A DNA stretch of 64,000 nucleotides. Source: Lysobacter antibioticus. Lineage in GTDB: Bacteria; Pseudomonadota; Gammaproteobacteria; Xanthomonadales; Xanthomonadaceae. Below are positions 27,186 to 59,518 of this stretch, in pieces; positions within the stretch are counted from its first letter, which is position 1, and the number at the start of each line of letters is the position of its first letter. Below the pieces are notes generated by a model. It saw only the letters and a list, made by a program, of their open reading frames with translations, did not search any database and was not told where the DNA came from. Position numbers and translations under genes: made by a program. Location: assembly GCF_000731095.1 (NCBI RefSeq), contig NZ_JMTZ01000019.1, positions 1-64,000 of the forward strand, given 5' to 3'.

Positions 27186-27916
27186 TGCTTGTCGTACAGC
27201 AGATCCCAGACGCCGTGGCCGAGTTTCTGGCCGCGGGTCTCGAAGTGCGTCTGCGGACGCCACGGCGGCCGGGCCACGCTGCCGCGCGGGCCGGCGCGGT
27301 TGACCAGGCCTGCGGTCGCATCGAGCACGTCCCACATCTGTTCGGCATAGTCCTGCCAATCGGTGGCGAGGTGCAAGCGACCGTCGGGCGAAAGTTTGCG
27401 CACCAGCAGATCGGCGAACGCGGGCTGGACCAGGCGGCGCTTGTTGTGGCGCTTCTTGTGCCACGGGTCCGGGAAATAGATGCGGACCTCGTCGAGCGAG
27501 CCGTCGGCGACTTCGTGGTTCAACACTTCGACCGCGTCGTGGTGATACAGGCGGACATGGTCGCTGCCGTCTTCGGCCAGGGCGTTCAACAGCCGGCCGA
27601 CGCCGGGGGCGTGGACCTCGATGCCGATCAGGTCGCGCTCGCGGTCGTGCTGGGCGGCGAAACGCAGGGCTTCGCCGTTGCCGAAGCCGATCTCGAGCAC
27701 GCGCTTGGCGCTACGGCCGAAGATTTCGTCGTAATCGCGCGGCGAACCCTGGTAGTCGATGCCGAAACGCGGCCACAGCTCGTCGAAGGCGCGCTGCTGG
27801 GCCGGAGTGAAGCGGCCCTGGCGCAGGACGAAGCTGCGCACCTGGCGCCGGCCTTCTTCCACGGTGAACGGCTTGGGCGGGGTCTTGGCGCCGTCGCTGG
27901 AGAACGGGTCCGTCAT
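27161..27916 (-). CDS. trmB: tRNA (guanine-N7)-methyltransferase
   Basis: TrmB makes m7G46 in tRNA using SAM. The SAM-binding [16 protein letters not shown], the catalytic region [15 protein letters not shown] and the C-terminal [17 protein letters not shown] are all present in 251 residues. The start overlaps the thiG stop by four bases (ATGA), so the two are coupled. The last residues (QPGIGNRE) are translated from a family C repeat, so the native C-terminus appears to have been replaced or extended by the element; the conserved core is intact. Confidence 0.95.
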
Positions 27917-28707
27917 TCGATCAAACCGTCCACCGGGCTCGACGCGCTGGCATAACGCTTGCGCGGAATGCGGCCGGCCTTGAACGCGGCGCGGCCGGCC
28001 TCGATCGCCAGCTTCATGGCATGCGCCATCAGGATCGGGTCGCGGGCGCCGGCGATGGCGGTGTTCATGAGCACGCCGTCGCAGCCCAGCTCCATGGCGA
28101 TGGCCGCGTCCGAGGCGGTGCCGACGCCGGCGTCGACCAGGATCGGCACCTTGGCGTTCTCGATGATCTCGAGCAGGTTGTACTTGTTCTGCACGCCCAG
28201 GCCCGAGCCGATCGGCGCCGCCAGCGGCATCACCGCCACGCAGCCGATCTGTTCCAGGCGCTTGGCCAGGATCGGGTCGTCGGAGGTGTAGACCATCACG
28301 TCGAAACCGTCCTTGACCAGGATTTCGGCCGCGGCCAGGGTCTGGACGACGTCGGGGAACAGCGTGCGCTGGTCGCCGAGCACTTCGAGCTTGACCAGCT
28401 TGTGGCCGTCGAGCAGTTCGCGGGCCAGGCGGCAGGTGCGCACGGCGTCGTCGGCGGTGTAGCAGCCGGCGGTGTTGGGCAGCAGGGTGTAGCGGTCCGG
28501 GGGCAGCACATCGAGCAGGTTCGGCTCGCCCGGGTTCTGGCCGATATTGGTGCGGCGGATGGCGACGGTGACGATCTCGGCGCCGGCGGCTTCGGTCGCC
28601 AGGCGGGTCTCGTCGAGGTCCTTGAACTTGCCGGTGCCGGTCAACAGGCGCGAGCGGTAGGTTTTGCCGGCGATGACCAGCGGATCGGATAAGGCGTTGT
28701 TCGTCAT
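27913..28707 (-). CDS. thiG: Thiazole synthase
   Basis: ThiG forms the thiazole phosphate of thiamine from DXP, dehydroglycine and the ThiS thiocarboxylate. The 264 residues match the family. Motifs include LTGTGKF, the Schiff-base region [20 protein letters not shown] and [18 protein letters not shown]. It is coupled to trmB. Its partner thiS lies 9 kb away at 37698 on the same strand, on the other side of an accessory block. No TPP riboswitch was seen upstream. Confidence 0.96.
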
Positions 28708-28926: not shown

Positions 28927-28950
28927 AAAATGTGATTGCAATCACATTTT
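28927..28950. promoter_or_regulatory. CRP/Clp-type operator (24-bp perfect palindrome)
   Basis: The core TGTGATTGCAATCACA fits TGTGA-N6-TCACA exactly, flanked by A and T runs that complete a 24-bp perfect palindrome. In Xanthomonadaceae this is the consensus of Clp, a CRP homologue whose DNA binding is blocked by c-di-GMP (known for Xanthomonas). A -10-like TATATT at 28957-28962 places the site near -30, a position that could fit repression or an unusual activation geometry. Confidence 0.85.
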
Positions 28951-29063
28951 GAAGCGTATATTGGCCGGCAAGCGGTACTGGGGCGGCGCTGAAGGTTCGC
29001 GACGCATCGGCCATCGCCGGCGGCGTCCGCTGGGGGAAGCGGGCGCCGCGCCGTCGTACGGGA

Positions 29064-29146
29064 CTCGAAAAAGGCACAACCGGTGAAAGCCGGTGTCGCA
29101 AAGCCACGGGTGCGGGCCGTCCGGTCAGCATGGCCGAGCTACCGAG
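29064..29146 (+). ncRNA. Cyclic-di-GMP-I (GEMM-I) riboswitch
   Basis: The aptamer signature is clear: an outer P1 helix (CTCG 29064-29067 with CGAG 29143-29146), AAGGCACAACC, a first hairpin capped by a GAAA tetraloop (29085-29088), the conserved GTCGCAAAGCCACGGG, a second arm, and the tetraloop-receptor strand ATGGCCGAGCTACCG. This class binds c-di-GMP. It sits in the leader of the secreted protein gene, 46 bases before its ATG. A small hairpin (GGGTG/CACCC, 29158-29173) between aptamer and ribosome binding site may be part of the switch; the direction of control is not evident. Confidence 0.92.
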
Positions 29147-29191
29147 CGCGAAGAACAGGGTGCTTTGCCACCCCGCTCACGGAGTTCTGAC

Positions 29192-31678
29192 ATGTCCACC
29201 ACTCGACGTTGGCGTCCGTTGCTTGCAACGGCGCTCTTGCTTGCTACCGCTGCCGCCTTGCCCACCGGGGCCTGGGCGGCCTCGGTGCAGCCGACCACTT
29301 TCTCGGGCAACTTCACCAGTTGCGACGACCTGCCCGGCGTAGCGACCTGGGCCGGATTGGGCGGCAGCACCGGCAGCGCACCGGTCAACGGCCAAAGCTA
29401 CAACCTTGGCGCACCCGGTCAAACCATCACCTTCAACTACACACCTGCCGACCAAAGCAAATTTATCGGCTTCACCTCGACCGTGCCGATGGACTACATC
29501 GTGGTCAAGGGCGGCAACGCCTATAACGTCTTCCACTACGACCCCGCCGCCCTCAGCGACATCAATCTGTTCGCACCGATCAATTCCAGCGGCGAACCCG
29601 CCGGCGTCAGCCATGTCGTGTTCTGCTTCCTGCCCAAGCCCAGCGGCGAGAAAACCGCCACGGCGAGCTGGAAGCGCTATACCGATTGGCAGATCGAAAA
29701 GACCGTGACGCCCGAGAGCATCGTGATGTTCGATGGCGACAGCCACCAGGTCGAATACACCGTCACCGCCACGCCGACCACCCGTGGCATGTATCGCGTC
29801 GCCGGCGCCATCACCGTCAAGGACCCGTTCGGCTTCGGTTGGAAGACCACCGCCGTGGTCGACACCATGCAGTTCAACAACAGCGCGACCCAGTTCCAGC
29901 TGAGTTGGACCTCGCAGGGCGGCGACACCGACACCCTGGCCTGCGTCAAGCCGGCCGCGAATCCGGACAAGATCATCCTGACCTGCGATTACGCGTTCGA
30001 CCTGAGCAGCAACACCCATCCGTTCCTGCTCAACGCCAGCGGAGGCGTCAACGCCGCCGGCATCACCAGCGAGCGCAACGGCGGCACCTATACGTTCGTG
30101 GCTTCCGCTGCGTTCTCGATCCCGGCGAACCCGGCCGAGAGCTACGGCGACACGTTCGTGATCGACGACTCGATGCTGCCGGGCGATCCGAACCACAGCT
30201 TCAGCCTCGGCAACGGTCCGTATGTGTGGACCTATCCGCGTCCGTCGCCGTTCGTGTGCGGTGCCGACGAAGGTCAGCACAACAACACCGCAACCGGTAC
30301 CTGGAGCACCAGCGCCAGCACCAATGCCACGGCCAGCGATTCGGCCATGGTCACCGTCGCCTGCCGGACCGTCGCGATCAGCAAGACCGCGCAGACCCGC
30401 TACGACCGCGACTATGCCTGGGCGCCCGACAAGCATGTGGTGGTCTCGCCGGCCGACGCCAAGGTCGTCGGCATGCAGGGCTGCCTGCCCGATCCGATCG
30501 CCAGCGGCATCTATGCCGGTAACTTCCTGTGCGACGACGTCGACGTGCTGCTCAATGTCGGCGGCAACTACGAGACGGTCTATCGTCTCGCGGCGACCCG
30601 CAGCACCGAGTCCGAGAGCGGCTTTGCGGTCAGCGGCAGCATCATGGTCACCTGGCCTGCCGACGCGACACCGCAGTTCAGCCCGGCCGATCCGAGCGAC
30701 ACTCTGCACTTCGCCGGTGGAGGCACCCAGTCGGTGTCGCCGACGTGCGACCCGCAGGGCGCGACCTCGCTCAACTGCACCTACGACGCAGCGCTGAGCG
30801 GCAAGCTCGAAGGCTATAACGAGGCGAGCATCCAGCGCGTGCTGAAGTGCTACGACGCTGCCGGCAACGCCAGCGATTGCGGCTTCACGAGCTACACCTC
30901 CAACCAGGCCGCACTGGTGTACGGCTCGCCGAACGTCGAAACCGACGCCTGCGTGCAGGTCAGCGACCTGTTCAACGGCATCCCGGGCCTCAACCTCGGC
31001 GATACCTTCGGTTGGCAGGTCAGCCCGCTGATGTGCAGCAGCTTCGCCCAGTACGTCACTGGCGACATCAACCCCGATCCGGGCATCGTCAACAGCCTCG
31101 ACCTGTTCGCGGCGTGGATACTGCCGAGCCAGACCGGACCCGGTAACACTTGCGAATTCATGGTTCCGAACCTCTTGACCTTGGCGACCGACAACGGCGT
31201 CAACAAGAGCGACGAAGCCGTGATCACCGTGAGCGTGCCGGAACTGTGCGCCAACAGCGGATGCACCTACACCCAGGGTTATTGGAAGACCCACTCGAAG
31301 TACGGCCCCGCGCCGTATGACGCGACCTGGGCCGCGATCGGAGAAGACACGCTGTTCTTCGCCTCCGGTCAGACCTGGTACAAGGTGTTCTGGACGCCGC
31401 CGAAGGGTGGCAACGCGTACTACATCCTCGCGCACCAGTACATGGCCGCACGCCTCAACGCCGAAGCCGGCGCAGGCGCACCGTCCAACGTGCAGGCCGC
31501 TATCGCCGAAGCCACCGCATGGTTCATCGGTCGCAGCACCACTGCGCCGAAGGGCGCGGCACGCGACACCGCGATCAGGCTCGCCGGCATTCTCGGCGCC
31601 TACAACGAAGGCACGACCGGACCTGGCCATTGCTCGGTCTCGCCGGCCACCGTGATCGACGGAGGCGGCAACAGCTGA
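29192..31678 (+). CDS. Large secreted protein under c-di-GMP riboswitch control
   Basis: The ATG at 29192 has GGAG eight bases upstream and opens a signal peptide (RWRPLLATALLLATAAALP, then TGAWAA). The 828-residue product is rich in Thr, Ser, Asn and Asp, typical of beta-sandwich surface proteins. Two related segments start near residues 168 (IEKTVTPESIVMFDG) and 396 (ISKTAQTRYDRDYAWAPDK). A C-terminal domain from about residue 692 begins CTYTQGYWKTHSKYGP. There is no cell-wall anchor or beta-barrel, so it is probably released or attached non-covalently. The riboswitch suggests a role in attachment, matrix or lifestyle change. Exact function is unknown. Confidence 0.8.
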   Translation: MSTTRRWRPLLATALLLATAAALPTGAWAASVQPTTFSGNFTSCDDLPGVATWAGLGGSTGSAPVNGQSYNLGAPGQTITFNYTPADQSKFIGFTSTVPMDYIVVKGGNAYNVFHYDPAALSDINLFAPINSSGEPAGVSHVVFCFLPKPSGEKTATASWKRYTDWQIEKTVTPESIVMFDGDSHQVEYTVTATPTTRGMYRVAGAITVKDPFGFGWKTTAVVDTMQFNNSATQFQLSWTSQGGDTDTLACVKPAANPDKIILTCDYAFDLSSNTHPFLLNASGGVNAAGITSERNGGTYTFVASAAFSIPANPAESYGDTFVIDDSMLPGDPNHSFSLGNGPYVWTYPRPSPFVCGADEGQHNNTATGTWSTSASTNATASDSAMVTVACRTVAISKTAQTRYDRDYAWAPDKHVVVSPADAKVVGMQGCLPDPIASGIYAGNFLCDDVDVLLNVGGNYETVYRLAATRSTESESGFAVSGSIMVTWPADATPQFSPADPSDTLHFAGGGTQSVSPTCDPQGATSLNCTYDAALSGKLEGYNEASIQRVLKCYDAAGNASDCGFTSYTSNQAALVYGSPNVETDACVQVSDLFNGIPGLNLGDTFGWQVSPLMCSSFAQYVTGDINPDPGIVNSLDLFAAWILPSQTGPGNTCEFMVPNLLTLATDNGVNKSDEAVITVSVPELCANSGCTYTQGYWKTHSKYGPAPYDATWAAIGEDTLFFASGQTWYKVFWTPPKGGNAYYILAHQYMAARLNAEAGAGAPSNVQAAIAEATAWFIGRSTTAPKGAARDTAIRLAGILGAYNEGTTGPGHCSVSPATVIDGGGNS

Positions 31679-31707: not shown

Positions 31708-31734
31708 AGCCCCGGCTTCGGCCGGGGCTTTTTT
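31708..31734 (+). terminator. Intrinsic terminator
   Basis: A 9-bp perfect stem AGCCCCGGC with a TTCG loop (31717-31720) is followed by six T. It ends the transcript of the riboswitch-controlled gene. Confidence 0.95.
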
Positions 31735-31807
31735 ATGCGCCGATGTCATTTGCTTGAACATCGCACCGACACGTAAGGCCCCCTCAAATATCGCATCGAC
31801 ACATGAA

Positions 31808-32075
31808 CTCCCCCCTTTGAAAAAGGGGGGGTAGGGGGGATTTGCTCTTATCCCATCCACATCAAGGCGATCTGCCCGGAAATCCCCCGGCGCAGCGGGC
31901 TTGTCGCTCCGCCGAACGACGCAGGCGCCCGCCCCCTTTGCAAAGGGGGCTTGTGTAGGTGTTTCCGCAGGCCGTTCACGCCCGTCGATCCGTCGGCGTC
32001 GAGCACACGGTGTTGATGTAGCCGCTGCCCAGAGAGGTCCCCCTTTGGAAAAGGGGGGGCAGGGGGGGATTTGCT
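31808..32075. repeat. Cluster of three family B palindromes
   Basis: Three members lie in this spacer: 31808-31846 (C-run, CTTTGAAAAAG, G-run, then AGGGGGGATTTGCT), 31931-31950 (perfect 20-bp palindrome centred on TTTGCAAA), and 32038-32075 (same type as the first). The first and last have the same orientation and end like the right end of the element at 24971-25149. They fill most of the 605-base gap before the TonB receptor gene; nothing coding was seen there. Confidence 0.85.
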
Positions 32076-32169
32076 CCTGCTCCGCTATGCATTCGCGCCC
32101 CGCATTCGCCCAGCAAGCAAGCTTGACCGATCCTGGCGCCAACCACCGCGCACGCAATTCCATCGACGG

Positions 32170-32187
32170 CTGTCACGAATCTTTAAA
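32170..32187 (+). promoter_or_regulatory. Candidate PHO box
   Basis: CTGTCAC-GAAT-CTTTAAA: the first half matches the PhoB half-site exactly, the 4-base spacer is AT-biased as in the consensus, and the second half matches 4 of 7. It lies about 100 bases before the TonB receptor of a phosphoesterase operon. The weak second half keeps this tentative. Confidence 0.4.
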
Positions 32188-32283
32188 CGTCGCGGCCCAG
32201 CATGCGCAGGATTGCCGGGCTCGACGCAGGGCCTTCGGACGGAACCGGCCGGCAGCCTTCCCTTCCTTCCGAACGCCGAATCC

Positions 32284-34857
32284 ATGATGCCTTCCACCCG
32301 CCAGCTGAGCCGGGCGATCCGTTGCGCCCTCGTACTGACCGCATTCGCCGTTTCTAGCGCACAGGCCCAGGACACCGCAGCGACTGCCGCCAGCGATGCG
32401 AGCATGGCCGCCGCCAGCGCAACCGATCTCGACACCGTCATCGTCACCGGCCGTTCCGGCACGCGCCAGCGCAGCAAGGCCGAGACCAGCTACTCGATCA
32501 CCGCCATCGACGAAGACCGCCTACGCATGCAGGCGCCGACCTCGGTCACCGAGGCGATGAAGTCGGTGCCGGGCTTTTGGGTCGAAGCCACCGGCGGCGA
32601 AGCCAGCGGCAACATCCGTGCGCGCGGCATCCCGGTCGACGGGTTCGGTTCGGTCACCCTGCTCGAAGACGGCATCCCGGTGCAGCACGACCCGGCCCTG
32701 GGCTTCCTCAACGGCGACCAGGCGTTCCGACTCGACGAGACCATCGAACGCATCGAAGTGGTGCGCGGCGGCCCCTCCTCGGTGTTCTACTCGAACGCGC
32801 CGGCCGGCGCGATCAACTTCATCCCGCGCGTGGTCGGCGACAGCGCCGAAGGCGTGGTCAAGTACACCGCAGGCGACTACGGCCTGAACCGCTACGACTT
32901 CTTCTTCGGTACGCCGCTTGGCGCCGGCTGGAAGCTCGGCCTCGGCGGCTTTTATCGTTTCGACGACGGCATCCGCGATCCCGGCTTCCAGGCCAACGAC
33001 GGCGGCCAGTACCGGCTCAACCTGAGCAAGGCGTTCGAGCGCGGCCGCTTCGCCTTCGACTACAAGCGCCTGGACGACAACGTCGCGCTGTACCTCGGCA
33101 TCCCGATGCGCACCTATGCCGACGGCAAGATCCGCGGCGTGCCCGGCTTCGACGATCACTACGGCACCCTGGCCGGCCCGGACACCCGCCATGCCTCGAT
33201 GCTGCAGGGCGACCGCAGCCGCTATGCCTTCGACAACGCGCGCGGCACCGAAGTGAAGCGCGACCAGTACACGGTCAAGTTCGATTACGAACTCGGCGCC
33301 GGCTTCAAGCTCGCCCAGTCGCTGCGCTACGACCGCACCGAGACCCAGCGCAACGGCGTGTTCCCGCTGCAGTTGCTCAGCGCCTCCAAGTTCCTGTCCG
33401 ACCCTGCGCTGAAAAAGCAGCTCGCGGCGATTCCCGGCGCCGCCGGCGCGCAGCTGCGCTACGTCAACGGCGCGGGCCAGGTGTTCGACGTCGCCAACCA
33501 GAACGGCAACGGCCTGGTCACGGTCGGCGGCCTGCGCGGCGTGACCATGCCGGTCGACGAGCTGATCAGCGACACCCGCCTGATGCGCCGTTTCGACTTC
33601 GGCGGGCAGAGCCACGACCTCACCTTCGGCTACTACTACGCACGCTTCGACCAGGACTTCGACCGCTATTCGTCGACGACCCTGCTCGACGTGCGCGATA
33701 ACGCGCGCCTGCTCGATCTGGTCGCGGTCGACGCCGCCGGCCGCCCATTGGCGACGCTGACCGACCACGGCTTCTACCGCTACGGTTATGAGTGGGAGAA
33801 CGCCAGCGGCCGCTCGACCACCCAGGCCGTGTACCTGTCGGACGAATGGCAGGTCAACGAGCGCCTGCGCATCGACGCCGGTGTGCGCTGGGAAAAGGTC
33901 AACGCCAAGGGTTGGACCGAGATCCGCAAGCAGGTCAACCTGGGCACTCCGGCGAGCTCGCAAATCCTGACCGGCTCGGGCCGCTTCGTGAACTACGACC
34001 GCGACTACGACAAGCTCGGCTGGACCGTCGGTGCCAATTGGCAGTTCGACAAATACTCGGGCCTGTTCGCGCGCTGGACCCCGACCTTCCGCCTGCCCAA
34101 TCTGTCGAGCTTCATCACCCGCTATTCCAACTGCACCCAGGCCGCGGCCCAGGACTGCGTGAGCAAGGACACCGCGGCGCAGCCGGTGATCCAGACCATG
34201 CAGCTCGGCGAGGTCGGCTACAAGTTCAGCAACGAAACCTTCGACGTGTTCGCCACGCTGTTCTACACCAAGTACGAGAACGTCGGTTTCAGCAATGCCG
34301 TGTTCGACCTCAACGCCGGCACCTCGACCGTGCAGCAGGGCTATGCCGACACCAAGACCACCGGCCTGGAGTTGGAAGCGTCGTGGTTCCCGGTGCGCTG
34401 GTTCGACATGCAGCTGACCGCGACCGTGCAGGACCCGCAATACAAAGGCCTGCGCTACACCGAGATCGTCAACGGCGCGCCGGTGTTGCGCGACTTCGTC
34501 GGCAACCAGTTGATCCGCGTGCCGAAGAACAGCTTCCGCATCGTGCCCGGCATCAACCTGCTCGACGACCGTCTGCGCCTGCAGCTCGCCTACGAATACC
34601 AGGGCGAGCGTTTCGTCGACACCGCCAATTCGGTGCGGCTGCCGTCGTACAACGTGCTCAACGCCAGCGCCCGCTACGAGTTCACCCCGGGGCTGACCCT
34701 GTTCCTGTACGGCGACAACCTGACCAACTCGCGCGGCCTGACCGAAGGCAACCCGCGCGCCGGCGAGCTGCAGAGCGCCGACGCCGGCGCCAACACCTTC
34801 ATCGCCCGCCCGCTGCTCGGCCGTGCCTTCCGCGCCGCGCTGATGTACCGGTTCTGA
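32284..34857 (+). CDS. TonB-dependent outer-membrane receptor
   Basis: The start is one of two adjacent ATGs (32284 or 32287) that open a signal peptide ending SSAQAQ. The 857-residue protein has an N-terminal plug (VIVTGRSGTRQRSKAETSYS; VTEAMKSVPGFWVEATGG; IERIEVVRGGPSSVFYSNAP) and a 22-strand-type barrel ending in the usual aromatic residue (FRAALMYRF). Substrate specificity is not evident; it was probably not acquired for common siderophores, since the genes just downstream encode phosphodiester hydrolases. The next gene begins 5 bases after its stop. Confidence 0.94.
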   Translation: MMPSTRQLSRAIRCALVLTAFAVSSAQAQDTAATAASDASMAAASATDLDTVIVTGRSGTRQRSKAETSYSITAIDEDRLRMQAPTSVTEAMKSVPGFWVEATGGEASGNIRARGIPVDGFGSVTLLEDGIPVQHDPALGFLNGDQAFRLDETIERIEVVRGGPSSVFYSNAPAGAINFIPRVVGDSAEGVVKYTAGDYGLNRYDFFFGTPLGAGWKLGLGGFYRFDDGIRDPGFQANDGGQYRLNLSKAFERGRFAFDYKRLDDNVALYLGIPMRTYADGKIRGVPGFDDHYGTLAGPDTRHASMLQGDRSRYAFDNARGTEVKRDQYTVKFDYELGAGFKLAQSLRYDRTETQRNGVFPLQLLSASKFLSDPALKKQLAAIPGAAGAQLRYVNGAGQVFDVANQNGNGLVTVGGLRGVTMPVDELISDTRLMRRFDFGGQSHDLTFGYYYARFDQDFDRYSSTTLLDVRDNARLLDLVAVDAAGRPLATLTDHGFYRYGYEWENASGRSTTQAVYLSDEWQVNERLRIDAGVRWEKVNAKGWTEIRKQVNLGTPASSQILTGSGRFVNYDRDYDKLGWTVGANWQFDKYSGLFARWTPTFRLPNLSSFITRYSNCTQAAAQDCVSKDTAAQPVIQTMQLGEVGYKFSNETFDVFATLFYTKYENVGFSNAVFDLNAGTSTVQQGYADTKTTGLELEASWFPVRWFDMQLTATVQDPQYKGLRYTEIVNGAPVLRDFVGNQLIRVPKNSFRIVPGINLLDDRLRLQLAYEYQGERFVDTANSVRLPSYNVLNASARYEFTPGLTLFLYGDNLTNSRGLTEGNPRAGELQSADAGANTFIARPLLGRAFRAALMYRF

Positions 34858-40288: not shown

Positions 40289-40362
40289 GCGGGTGTAGTT
40301 CAATGGTAGAACTGCAGCTTCCCAAGCTGCTAGCGTGGGTTCGATTCCCATCACCCGCTCCA
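40289..40362 (+). tRNA. tRNA-Gly (anticodon CCC), CCA encoded
   Basis: The acceptor arms GCGGGTG (40289-40295) and CACCCGC (40352-40358) pair fully. The D arm, the anticodon arm (GCAGC, loop TTCCCAA, GCTGC) and the T arm (loop TTCGATT) are all in place. The anticodon CCC reads GGG glycine codons. The discriminator is T and the 3' CCA is encoded. Confidence 0.97.
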
Positions 40363-57870: not shown

Positions 57871-59316
57871 TCAATAGCGGTAGTGATCCGGCTTGTACGG
57901 GCCGTCGACCGAGACGCCCAGGTACTTGGCCTGCTCGTCGGTCAGGGTGGTCAGCTTCACGCCGATCTTTTCCAGGTGCAGACGCGCGACTTCTTCGTCG
58001 AGCTTCTTCGGCAGGATGTAGACCTTCGCTTCGTAGGTTTCCTTGTTCGCCCACAGCTCGATCTGCGCCAGGGTCTGGTTGGCGAACGAGTTGGACATGA
58101 CGAAGCTCGGGTGGCCGGTGGCGCAGCCAAGGTTGACCAGGCGGCCTTCGGCCAGCAGGAAGATCGAGTTGCCACCGGCGAAGGTGTACTTGTCGACCTG
58201 CGGCTTGATGTTCAGGCGCTTGGCGCCCGACGCGGCCAGCGCATCGACCTGGATCTCGTTGTCGAAGTGGCCGATGTTGCAGACGATGGCCTGATCCTTC
58301 ATCTGCTGCATGTGGGCCAGGGTCAGCACGTCCTTGTTGCCGGTCGTGGTGACGTAGATGTCGCCGCGGCCGAGGGTGCTCTCGACGGTGTTGACCTCGA
58401 AGCCTTCCATCGCCGCCTGCAGGGCGTTGATCGGGTCGATCTCGGTGACCACGACGCGGGCGCCGTAAGCGCGCAACGAGTGAGCCGAGCCCTTGCCGAC
58501 GTCGCCGTAACCGCAGACCACCGCGACCTTGCCGGCCAGCATCACGTCCATCGCGCGCTTGAGGCCGTCGGCCAGCGATTCGCGGCAGCCGTAGAGGTTG
58601 TCGAACTTCGACTTGGTGACCGAGTCGTTGACGTTGATCGCCGGGACCAGCAGCGAGCCGGCTTCGGCGAGCTGGTACAGGCGGTGCACGCCGGTGGTGG
58701 TTTCTTCGGAGACGCCCTTCCAATGCTTGACCACTTCGTGCCAGAAGCCCGGGCGCTCGGCGTGCACGCGCTTGAGCAGGTTCTTGATGACCTGTTCTTC
58801 GTGGTTGCCCGACGGGGTGTTGACCCAGCCGTCGCCGTTTTCGAGCTCGTAGCCCTTGTGGATCAGCAGGGTGACGTCGCCGCCGTCGTCGACGACCAGC
58901 TCCGGGCCGCGGAACTTGACCGCGCCGTCGCCCGGGAAGGTCAGAGCTTCGAGGGTGCAATCCCAATACTCTTCCAGCGACTCGCCCTTCCAGGCGAACA
59001 CCGGGGTGCCGCTGGCGGCGATCGCGGCGGCAGCGTGGTCCTGGGTCGAGAAGATGTTGCACGAAGCCCAGCGCACGTCGGCGCCGAGGTCGCGCAGGGT
59101 CTCGATCAGCACCGCGGTCTGGATGGTCATGTGCAGCGAGCCGGTCACGCGCACGCCCTTCAGCGATTGCGCGGCGGCGTACTTCTTGCGGATCGACATC
59201 AGGCCCGGCATTTCGTGCTCGGCGATGTCGATTTCCTTGCGGCCCCAATCGGCCAGGGAGATGTCGGCAACCTTGTAGTCGCCTTCGGTCGAGAAGGTCT
59301 TGGGTACTGCGTTCAT
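57871..59316 (-). CDS. ahcY: Adenosylhomocysteinase (SAH hydrolase)
   Basis: AhcY splits S-adenosylhomocysteine into adenosine and homocysteine, using bound NAD. The 481-residue protein has [40 protein letters not shown] (with the active Asn/Lys region), the NAD loop [13 protein letters not shown] and the C-terminal [13 protein letters not shown], which contributes the conserved Lys and Tyr. Transcription is probably under the SAH riboswitch upstream and stops at the hairpin downstream. Confidence 0.98.
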
Positions 59317-59393
59317 GGTGTGTCGCTCCAGTTCTTTAGGGAGCCGGCGGATGCCGGGTCCGGCGAGTCATCGCTCGAAAGCGATCGCTCAAA

Positions 59394-59507
59394 CCGGGCG
59401 CCGTTGGGACTACGCCTCGCCGAGCCTGGCCGTCATTCTGGAAGTCCGTAGCGGGTACGGGCTTTGCGGAAAGATCCGCGGATGACGGTCGCAGCGCCCC
59501 TCGGCGG
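59394..59507 (-). ncRNA. S-adenosylhomocysteine (SAH) riboswitch
   Basis: Read on the minus strand: GCCGAG (complement of 59500-59505) pairs with CTCGGC (59419-59424) as P1; CCGTCAT/ATGACGG (59482-59488 and 59430-59436) forms P2; and GGGCGC (59494-59499) pairs with GCGCCC (59396-59401) as the pseudoknot. Conserved GGGGCGCTGCGACCG, CCAGGCTCGG and CCAACGGCGCC are present. It sits 78 bases before ahcY, which removes SAH. In this class, SAH binding turns the gene on. Confidence 0.93.
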
Positions 59508-59518
59508 GCTGAGCGCGC

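Follow-up and report, generated by a model that had tools for sequence, protein, structure and literature searches.

We identified a c-di-GMP-I riboswitch directly in front of a single gene for a probably exported protein of 828 residues in Lysobacter antibioticus, and the pairing of this RNA with relatives of the gene recurs in two samples of genomes. Cyclic-di-GMP is the bacterial signal to settle down. In the stretch of DNA analysed, 64,000 nucleotides long and referred to here as the window, cmscan matched the RNA to the full RF01051 model (positions 1 to 87) at 57.2 bits against a gathering threshold of 35 (E 1.5e-08), and the GAAA tetraloop on the first hairpin and the receptor strand are both present in the alignment. 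The first-pass annotation had read the main GEMM-I marks from the letters and proposed a covariance search as a check; both proved right, with the GAAA-capped first hairpin, CGCAAAGCC, ATGGCCGAGCTACCG and P1 all in the sequence and the receptor intact. P1 is closed by four pairs (CTCG 29064-29067 with CGAG 29143-29146). The spacer between aptamer and ATG, previously given as 46 bases, comes to 45 (29147-29191). Among the ligand-contact positions, in Vc2 numbering, G20 and A47 were found by script and C92 by eye within ACCGAG; G20 and A47 recur in all 11 other aptamer copies of the genus. Judged by these features, the window RNA is a genuine, intact c-di-GMP-I riboswitch and is predicted to bind its ligand. 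Along the whole model it resembles the class (GEMM-I, RF01051) in both sequence and structure, with canonical positions 20 and 47, and the aptamer itself shows no difference from the class at large; the regulated gene family is nameless here. The c-di-GMP-I-GGC variant (RF03167) was rejected, as its model scored 54.4 bits, short of the 59 set as cut-off, and A rather than G stands at position 47. At E ≤ 0.001, RF01051 matched once in the 168 contigs of the genome, and the same search found it in none of 14 control genomes. Three cmscan matches in the window exceed gathering: RF01051, a tRNA gene (40289-40359, plus strand, Rfam 71.2 bits) and an SAH riboswitch (59389-59508, minus strand, 59.3 bits), which lies upstream of the S-adenosylhomocysteine hydrolase gene (57871-59316, minus strand) in an ordinary, known pairing.

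The longest mechanical open reading frame downstream has 861 codons for amino acids and begins at GTG 29093, within the aptamer. We prefer ATG 29192 as the start, because it is preceded by GGAG at a spacing of 7 and this arrangement (spacing 6-7) is kept in 12 of 12 leaders of the genus. The features of the region are collected in Table 1. Since the genome holds 16 GGDEF matches, c-di-GMP signalling is likely to operate in this organism.

Table 1. Features in and around the leader of the 828-aa gene; positions are those of the window.
Feature	Position	Strand	Basis or remark
thiG, upstream neighbour	27913-28707	opposite to 828-aa gene	
Perfect CRP/Clp-type palindrome TGTGA-N6-TCACA	28931..28946	.	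0 mismatches
Conserved GCGTATATT, putative -10 region	28954..28962	+	TATA(T/G)T similarly placed in 11/12 genus leaders
c-di-GMP-I aptamer (RF01051)	29063..29146	+	covariance match; positions 20/47 = G/A
Proposed expression platform	29144..29187	+	inferred; GAGCG 29144-29148 with CGCTC 29174-29178, inner hairpin GGGTG/CACCC 29158-29173
Alternative pairing of the aptamer 3′ strand with GGAGTTC	from 29136, with 29181-29187	+	inferred
Shine-Dalgarno GGAG	29181..29184	+	sequence and genus leaders
828-aa protein	29192..31678	+	Sec-type N terminus (by eye), N-terminal beta module, two Ig-like stretches, GYWKTH domain at about residues 690-815
Terminator-like hairpin and T run, 3′ of gene	31714..31736	+	scan: 6 found vs 2.7 expected in region
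TonB-dependent receptor, neighbour gene	32071-34857		

The pairing of riboswitch and gene is real in both family samples. The protein is present in 11 of the 19 other genomes of the genus; each of these 11 carriers has one RF01051 copy, just upstream of the gene, and the eight non-carriers have none. Two further genomes of the same family (G027 and G031) also hold both protein and RNA. Across 395 genomes of this family the protein profile matched 23, namely 16 with the full-length protein (the genome of the window included), six that have the C-terminal domain alone and a single stray match in G115 (E 3e-4, interrupted by one stop and on the opposite strand), which was not counted as full-length. 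RF01051 was found in 37 of the 395: it stands immediately upstream of the gene in 16/16 full-length carriers, occurs anywhere in 21 of the 379 other genomes and is absent from the six that have only the C-terminal domain (Fisher 1e-18 for the pairing, uncorrected for kinship). In the family of Rudaea, three of 197 genomes carry RF01051, and it is these three that encode the full-length protein, with 0/194 among the others; a match in G453 to the N-terminal stretch alone (E 5e-4) was not counted as full-length. Both samples pooled, 19/19 full-length relatives carry a c-di-GMP-I riboswitch. Searches across more than 40 genomes (the sets of 395, 197 and 147) used stricter filters, by which weak matches are lost, and the loci L036-L041, which are the genomes G010, G003, G006, G077, G027 and G031, were counted once. 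Named relatives include L. antibioticus HS124, L. tabacisoli C8-1, other Lysobacter, Rudaea cellulosilytica and a gammaproteobacterial MAG. The earlier interpretation of an intact aptamer before one gene of no known family thus gains a pairing kept in relatives; it does not extend to two more distant relatives of the same order (G041 and G051), which lack RF01051.

We inspected 18 c-di-GMP-I loci of the family and found relatives of the 828-aa gene downstream in two of them, L125 and L128. Most of the remaining 16 precede genes for exported proteins which, by their motifs, resemble GDSL esterases, spore-coat-U-like or adhesin-like proteins; L116 and L133 were left unassigned, and the aptamers of L116 and L117, loci cut by contig ends, could not be placed. 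GDSL-esterase-like genes (FFGDSLTDSG, by eye) lie near the c-di-GMP-I copies of L123, L126, L127 and L129-L132. Titles and abstract openings in open-access PMC yielded no c-di-GMP riboswitch target in Lysobacter, and Lysobacter or xanthomonad names occur 0 times in the main text of PMC12452182 and PMC9481103. In Bacillus thuringiensis, Bc2 RNA controls the collagen adhesion protein Cap (excerpt of PMC4933901). Both there and in the window, one c-di-GMP-I aptamer precedes a gene for a surface protein, predicted as such in the window. Cap, however, belongs to another phylum and, judging by its name alone, is unrelated to the 828-aa protein.

Translational activation by the ligand is the most likely mode of switching, and we regard it as moderately probable. 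Without ligand, the aptamer 3′ strand, or else the 5′ strand of P1, would pair with the Shine-Dalgarno (SD) region and block the ribosome; c-di-GMP would lock the aptamer and free the SD sequence, turning translation on. Pairing of the 3′ strand (GAGCU-A-CC-GAGCG) with CGCUC...GGAGUUC across the SD sequence is possible in 11 of 12 genus leaders, at −15.0 to −17.2 kcal/mol (mononucleotide-shuffle p 0.023-0.077), and in leader L013 it reaches −19.0 kcal/mol (p 0.007); the 5′ strand of P1 offers a second option, at −11.6 in the window. Free folds of the genus leaders leave the SD sequence unpaired at 0.03-0.24. In an uncontrolled comparison, forcing P1 opened it in 15 of 18 leaders, with two unchanged and one less open, and in 12/12 of those from the genus. 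When the whole aptamer was enforced on the window leader, opening was partial and varied with the chosen ends. Permutation of the pairing partners across clades supported neither strand (8742/40320 and 112690/362880), and shuffled platforms (60 each) closed the SD sequence about equally well, with 0/12 genus leaders and 2/6 other leaders (L041 and L149) at or below 0.05. We only infer the ON model, because the permutation and shuffle tests were unsupportive.

The main rival, which we consider unlikely, is an OFF switch. Here ligand binding would form P1 and release CGCTC (29174-29178) to pair with the adjacent GGAGT, hiding the SD sequence, whereas in the ligand-free RNA GAGCG would hold CGCTC and keep the site open. 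A short GCTC-acg-GAGT hairpin is indeed possible in the window, and the only partly open SD sequence in the enforced bound fold would suit such a switch. However, this hairpin is weak, its loop is too short in G009 and G018 (L011 and L012) because one base is missing, and the closed SD sequence in the free folds of the genus leaders argues against an open ligand-free state.

The proposed ON riboswitch may be joined by a second gate upstream. The palindrome in the putative promoter region conforms to TGTGA-N6-TCACA, the recognition motif of Clp. Up to one mismatch, 0.65 matches are expected by chance in the window; the genome holds ten perfect copies and none of a reversed control pattern. Five of 12 genus leaders retain the palindrome at this position with 0-1 mismatches; two others have it elsewhere with one mismatch, L012 has it with two, and four have none closer than four mismatches. 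Among shuffled leaders, 8 of 3000 came within one mismatch. The palindrome lies 10 bases ahead of the conserved TATA(T/G)T, and a sigma-70 consensus scan returned no promoter. If TATATT serves as the −10 element, Clp sitting on the palindrome would cover part of the promoter and act as a repressor when c-di-GMP is low, and the site would act in the same sense as the ON riboswitch. Clp of L. enzymogenes, a CRP-like protein, binds c-di-GMP and in doing so binds DNA less well (excerpt of PMC7577485). The window shares a CRP-type palindrome upstream with the Clp regulon of that species; there Clp loses DNA binding with c-di-GMP, whereas the window side of the comparison is a putative motif only.

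The product had been described in the first-pass annotation as an uncharacterised, secreted protein of 828 residues. Length and lack of a family stand, as Pfam and NCBIfam returned sub-threshold matches only; secretion is read from a Sec-type signal peptide judged by eye, by which the protein is probably exported in a Sec-dependent manner. It contains 18 cysteines, and conserved cysteines are among its features. A full-length AF2 model (13 rows) was poor (mean pLDDT 45.5), and the Ig-like matches that Foldseek gave for this low-confidence model are taken as a hint only. An unnamed domain, GYWKTH...LAHQ...GPGHC, forms the C-terminal end of the protein. The model of this domain (78-row alignment) is helical, and its pLDDT is 93-98 for residues 696-805 and 86 for 806-815 (segment mean 75.1). 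Foldseek found no match in the PDB at E ≤ 0.001 (best E 0.89), a PDB sequence search found none, and no Pfam or NCBIfam family was shared by more than 2 of the 78 members. In a phmmer comparison over the best 80 of 114 relatives, every locus matched the C-terminal domain, 18 matched the N-terminal module, and the first and second Ig-like stretches were matched by 22 and 9 loci, respectively; 52 of these loci were scanned by cmscan and 28 left out, some are cut upstream by contig ends, and alignment A2 took in 74. The domain lies near the C terminus in proteins of Chloroflexota, Thermus, Bacteroidota, Nannocystis, candidate phyla and archaeal MAGs. Open-access PMC, by titles and abstract openings, held no paper with GYWKTH-type strings.

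From this architecture we guess that an adhesin or matrix role is likely. The gene would be dedicated to a cysteine-rich, multi-domain surface or matrix protein, exported via Sec and made at high c-di-GMP, with the GYWKTH domain as its most conserved piece. Taken as a whole, c-di-GMP-I ON control of one gene for such an exported protein is our best explanation, and we give it an even chance of being right. Alternatively, the protein might serve as an enzyme or in predation, and the GYWKTH domain would then be a catalytic or metal site rather than part of a structural adhesin. Within the domain, C691, W713, N805 and G807 are invariant, H813 is conserved at 95% and C814 at 99%, and a set of polar residues that vary little or not at all (K699, H701, H748, Q749, N756, N805 and H813), in a confident model, would befit such a site. 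However, part of the conservation within the two search patterns stems from the way the sequences were selected (N805, G807, H813 and C814 lie outside the patterns), and neither an enzyme family nor a PDB match by sequence or fold came out of the searches. We regard this alternative as unlikely.

The C-terminal domain also occurs behind riboswitches of another class. At locus L073 (Anaerolineaceae) a c-di-GMP-II-type aptamer precedes a GYWKTH gene, scoring 40.2 bits with RF03169 (cut-off 40) and 38.3 with RF01786 (cut-off 53.5). Across 147 genomes of this family, RF01786 gave 208 matches in 68 genomes at E ≤ 0.001 and exceeded its cut-off in six genomes. The domain profile matched 16 of the 147; of these places, 13 loci hold 14 open reading frames with the motif, 11 of them assessable once three that reach contig ends (L232, L240 and the first of L237) are excluded. 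In seven of the 11 (L233-L239) the first ATG follows a same-strand aptamer at a distance of 30-147 bases, and each of the seven aptamers is followed by a T run. Four reach a cut-off, L233 with RF01786 and L235, L236 and L239 with the GAG variant RF03169; three stay below. The other four (L229, L230, L231 and L243) have no aptamer directly upstream, and a doublet before the preceding reading frame in L243 was counted as a miss. Assuming 3000 genes per genome, which gives about 0.0005 aptamers per gene, 7/11 is far beyond chance and 4/11 would be as well, kinship being uncorrected. An aptamer in L242 stands before a reading frame that lacks the motif. At the gathering threshold, 46 loci outside Lysobacter showed a switch upstream in Rudaea and L047 (class I) and in L073 (class II); the class I copy in L053 lies on the other strand and not upstream. 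Thermus, considered as a further case, was dropped, as its 10 loci held no c-di-GMP riboswitch at this threshold. Six c-di-GMP-I matches, some in tandem and one a strong GGC-variant match of 77.1 bits, were noted in the genome of an Anaerolineales MAG (G428; L246 and L247), before reading frames without the GYWKTH motif. The c-di-GMP-II riboswitches are an RNA class unrelated to c-di-GMP-I (excerpt of PMC12452182). In one Chloroflexota family, RF01786 and its GAG variant RF03169 thus stand before genes that share the C-terminal domain with the window gene, yet belong to an unrelated RNA class that is not found at the window and are followed by T runs. These class II-type aptamers probably sense the same signal as the window switch.

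Attenuation of transcription is common among c-di-GMP-I riboswitches. Together with the T runs behind all seven class II copies in the Chloroflexota family, this lends some plausibility to transcriptional or Rho-dependent attenuation instead of translational control. At the window, however, a scan of the plus strand between aptamer and ATG found no terminator-like site and the platform hairpin has no T run on its 3′ side, and we regard attenuation as quite unlikely.

Several relatives of the window gene are preceded by more than one aptamer. Doublets of c-di-GMP-I were found before the same gene in G027 (L040), in G077 (L039), in Rudaea and in the genome of L047 (first copy 35.7 bits), and a triplet in G069 (L149); the loci with such tandems include L046. 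Tandem arrangement is shared with the c-di-GMP-I class at large, for which 347 doublets and 12 triplets are known (excerpt of PMC9481103). Position 20 is A in G031, copy 1 of G027, copy 3 of G069 and both Rudaea copies, and C in copy 2 of G027; in this survey copy 1 of G077 was read as G by eye and copy 1 of L047 was left out. The replacement of G by A or C in the aptamers of L026, L033, L035, L046 and L149 makes a change of ligand possible, also within tandems. G at this position is linked to c-di-GMP and A to c-AMP-GMP (excerpt of PMC9481103). That the window aptamer binds a relative such as c-AMP-GMP instead of c-di-GMP, as A or C at position 20 before several relatives of the gene might suggest, is highly improbable given G20 and A47 in the window and in 11/11 other genus copies and a GGC variant score under its cut-off.

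Taken together, these observations permit a joint reading, which we put forward tentatively and would sooner see doubted than relied on. The widespread C-terminal domain (GYWKTH...LAHQ...GPGHC) may mark exported proteins of a c-di-GMP-dependent settling programme, with RNA control acquired independently through class I riboswitches, acting on translation, in Lysobacter and relatives and through class II riboswitches, probably acting on transcription, in a Chloroflexota family. In the lineage of the window the gene would be doubly gated by the Clp/CRP-type site and the riboswitch, both expected to be open at high c-di-GMP, and in some relatives tandems whose position 20 is G, A or C may read more than one dinucleotide. 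The interest of the system is raised by the steady pairing with one protein family in the two family samples and by the fact that a different phylum has the C-terminal domain of this family behind riboswitches of an unrelated class. In Lysobacter, c-di-GMP and Clp have already been linked to antifungal activity (excerpt of PMC7577485). If the joint reading is true, an unnamed domain of many bacterial phyla and some archaeal MAGs would be tied to c-di-GMP control, and Lysobacter would possess a direct c-di-GMP output, with a possible role of the domain in attachment or matrix.
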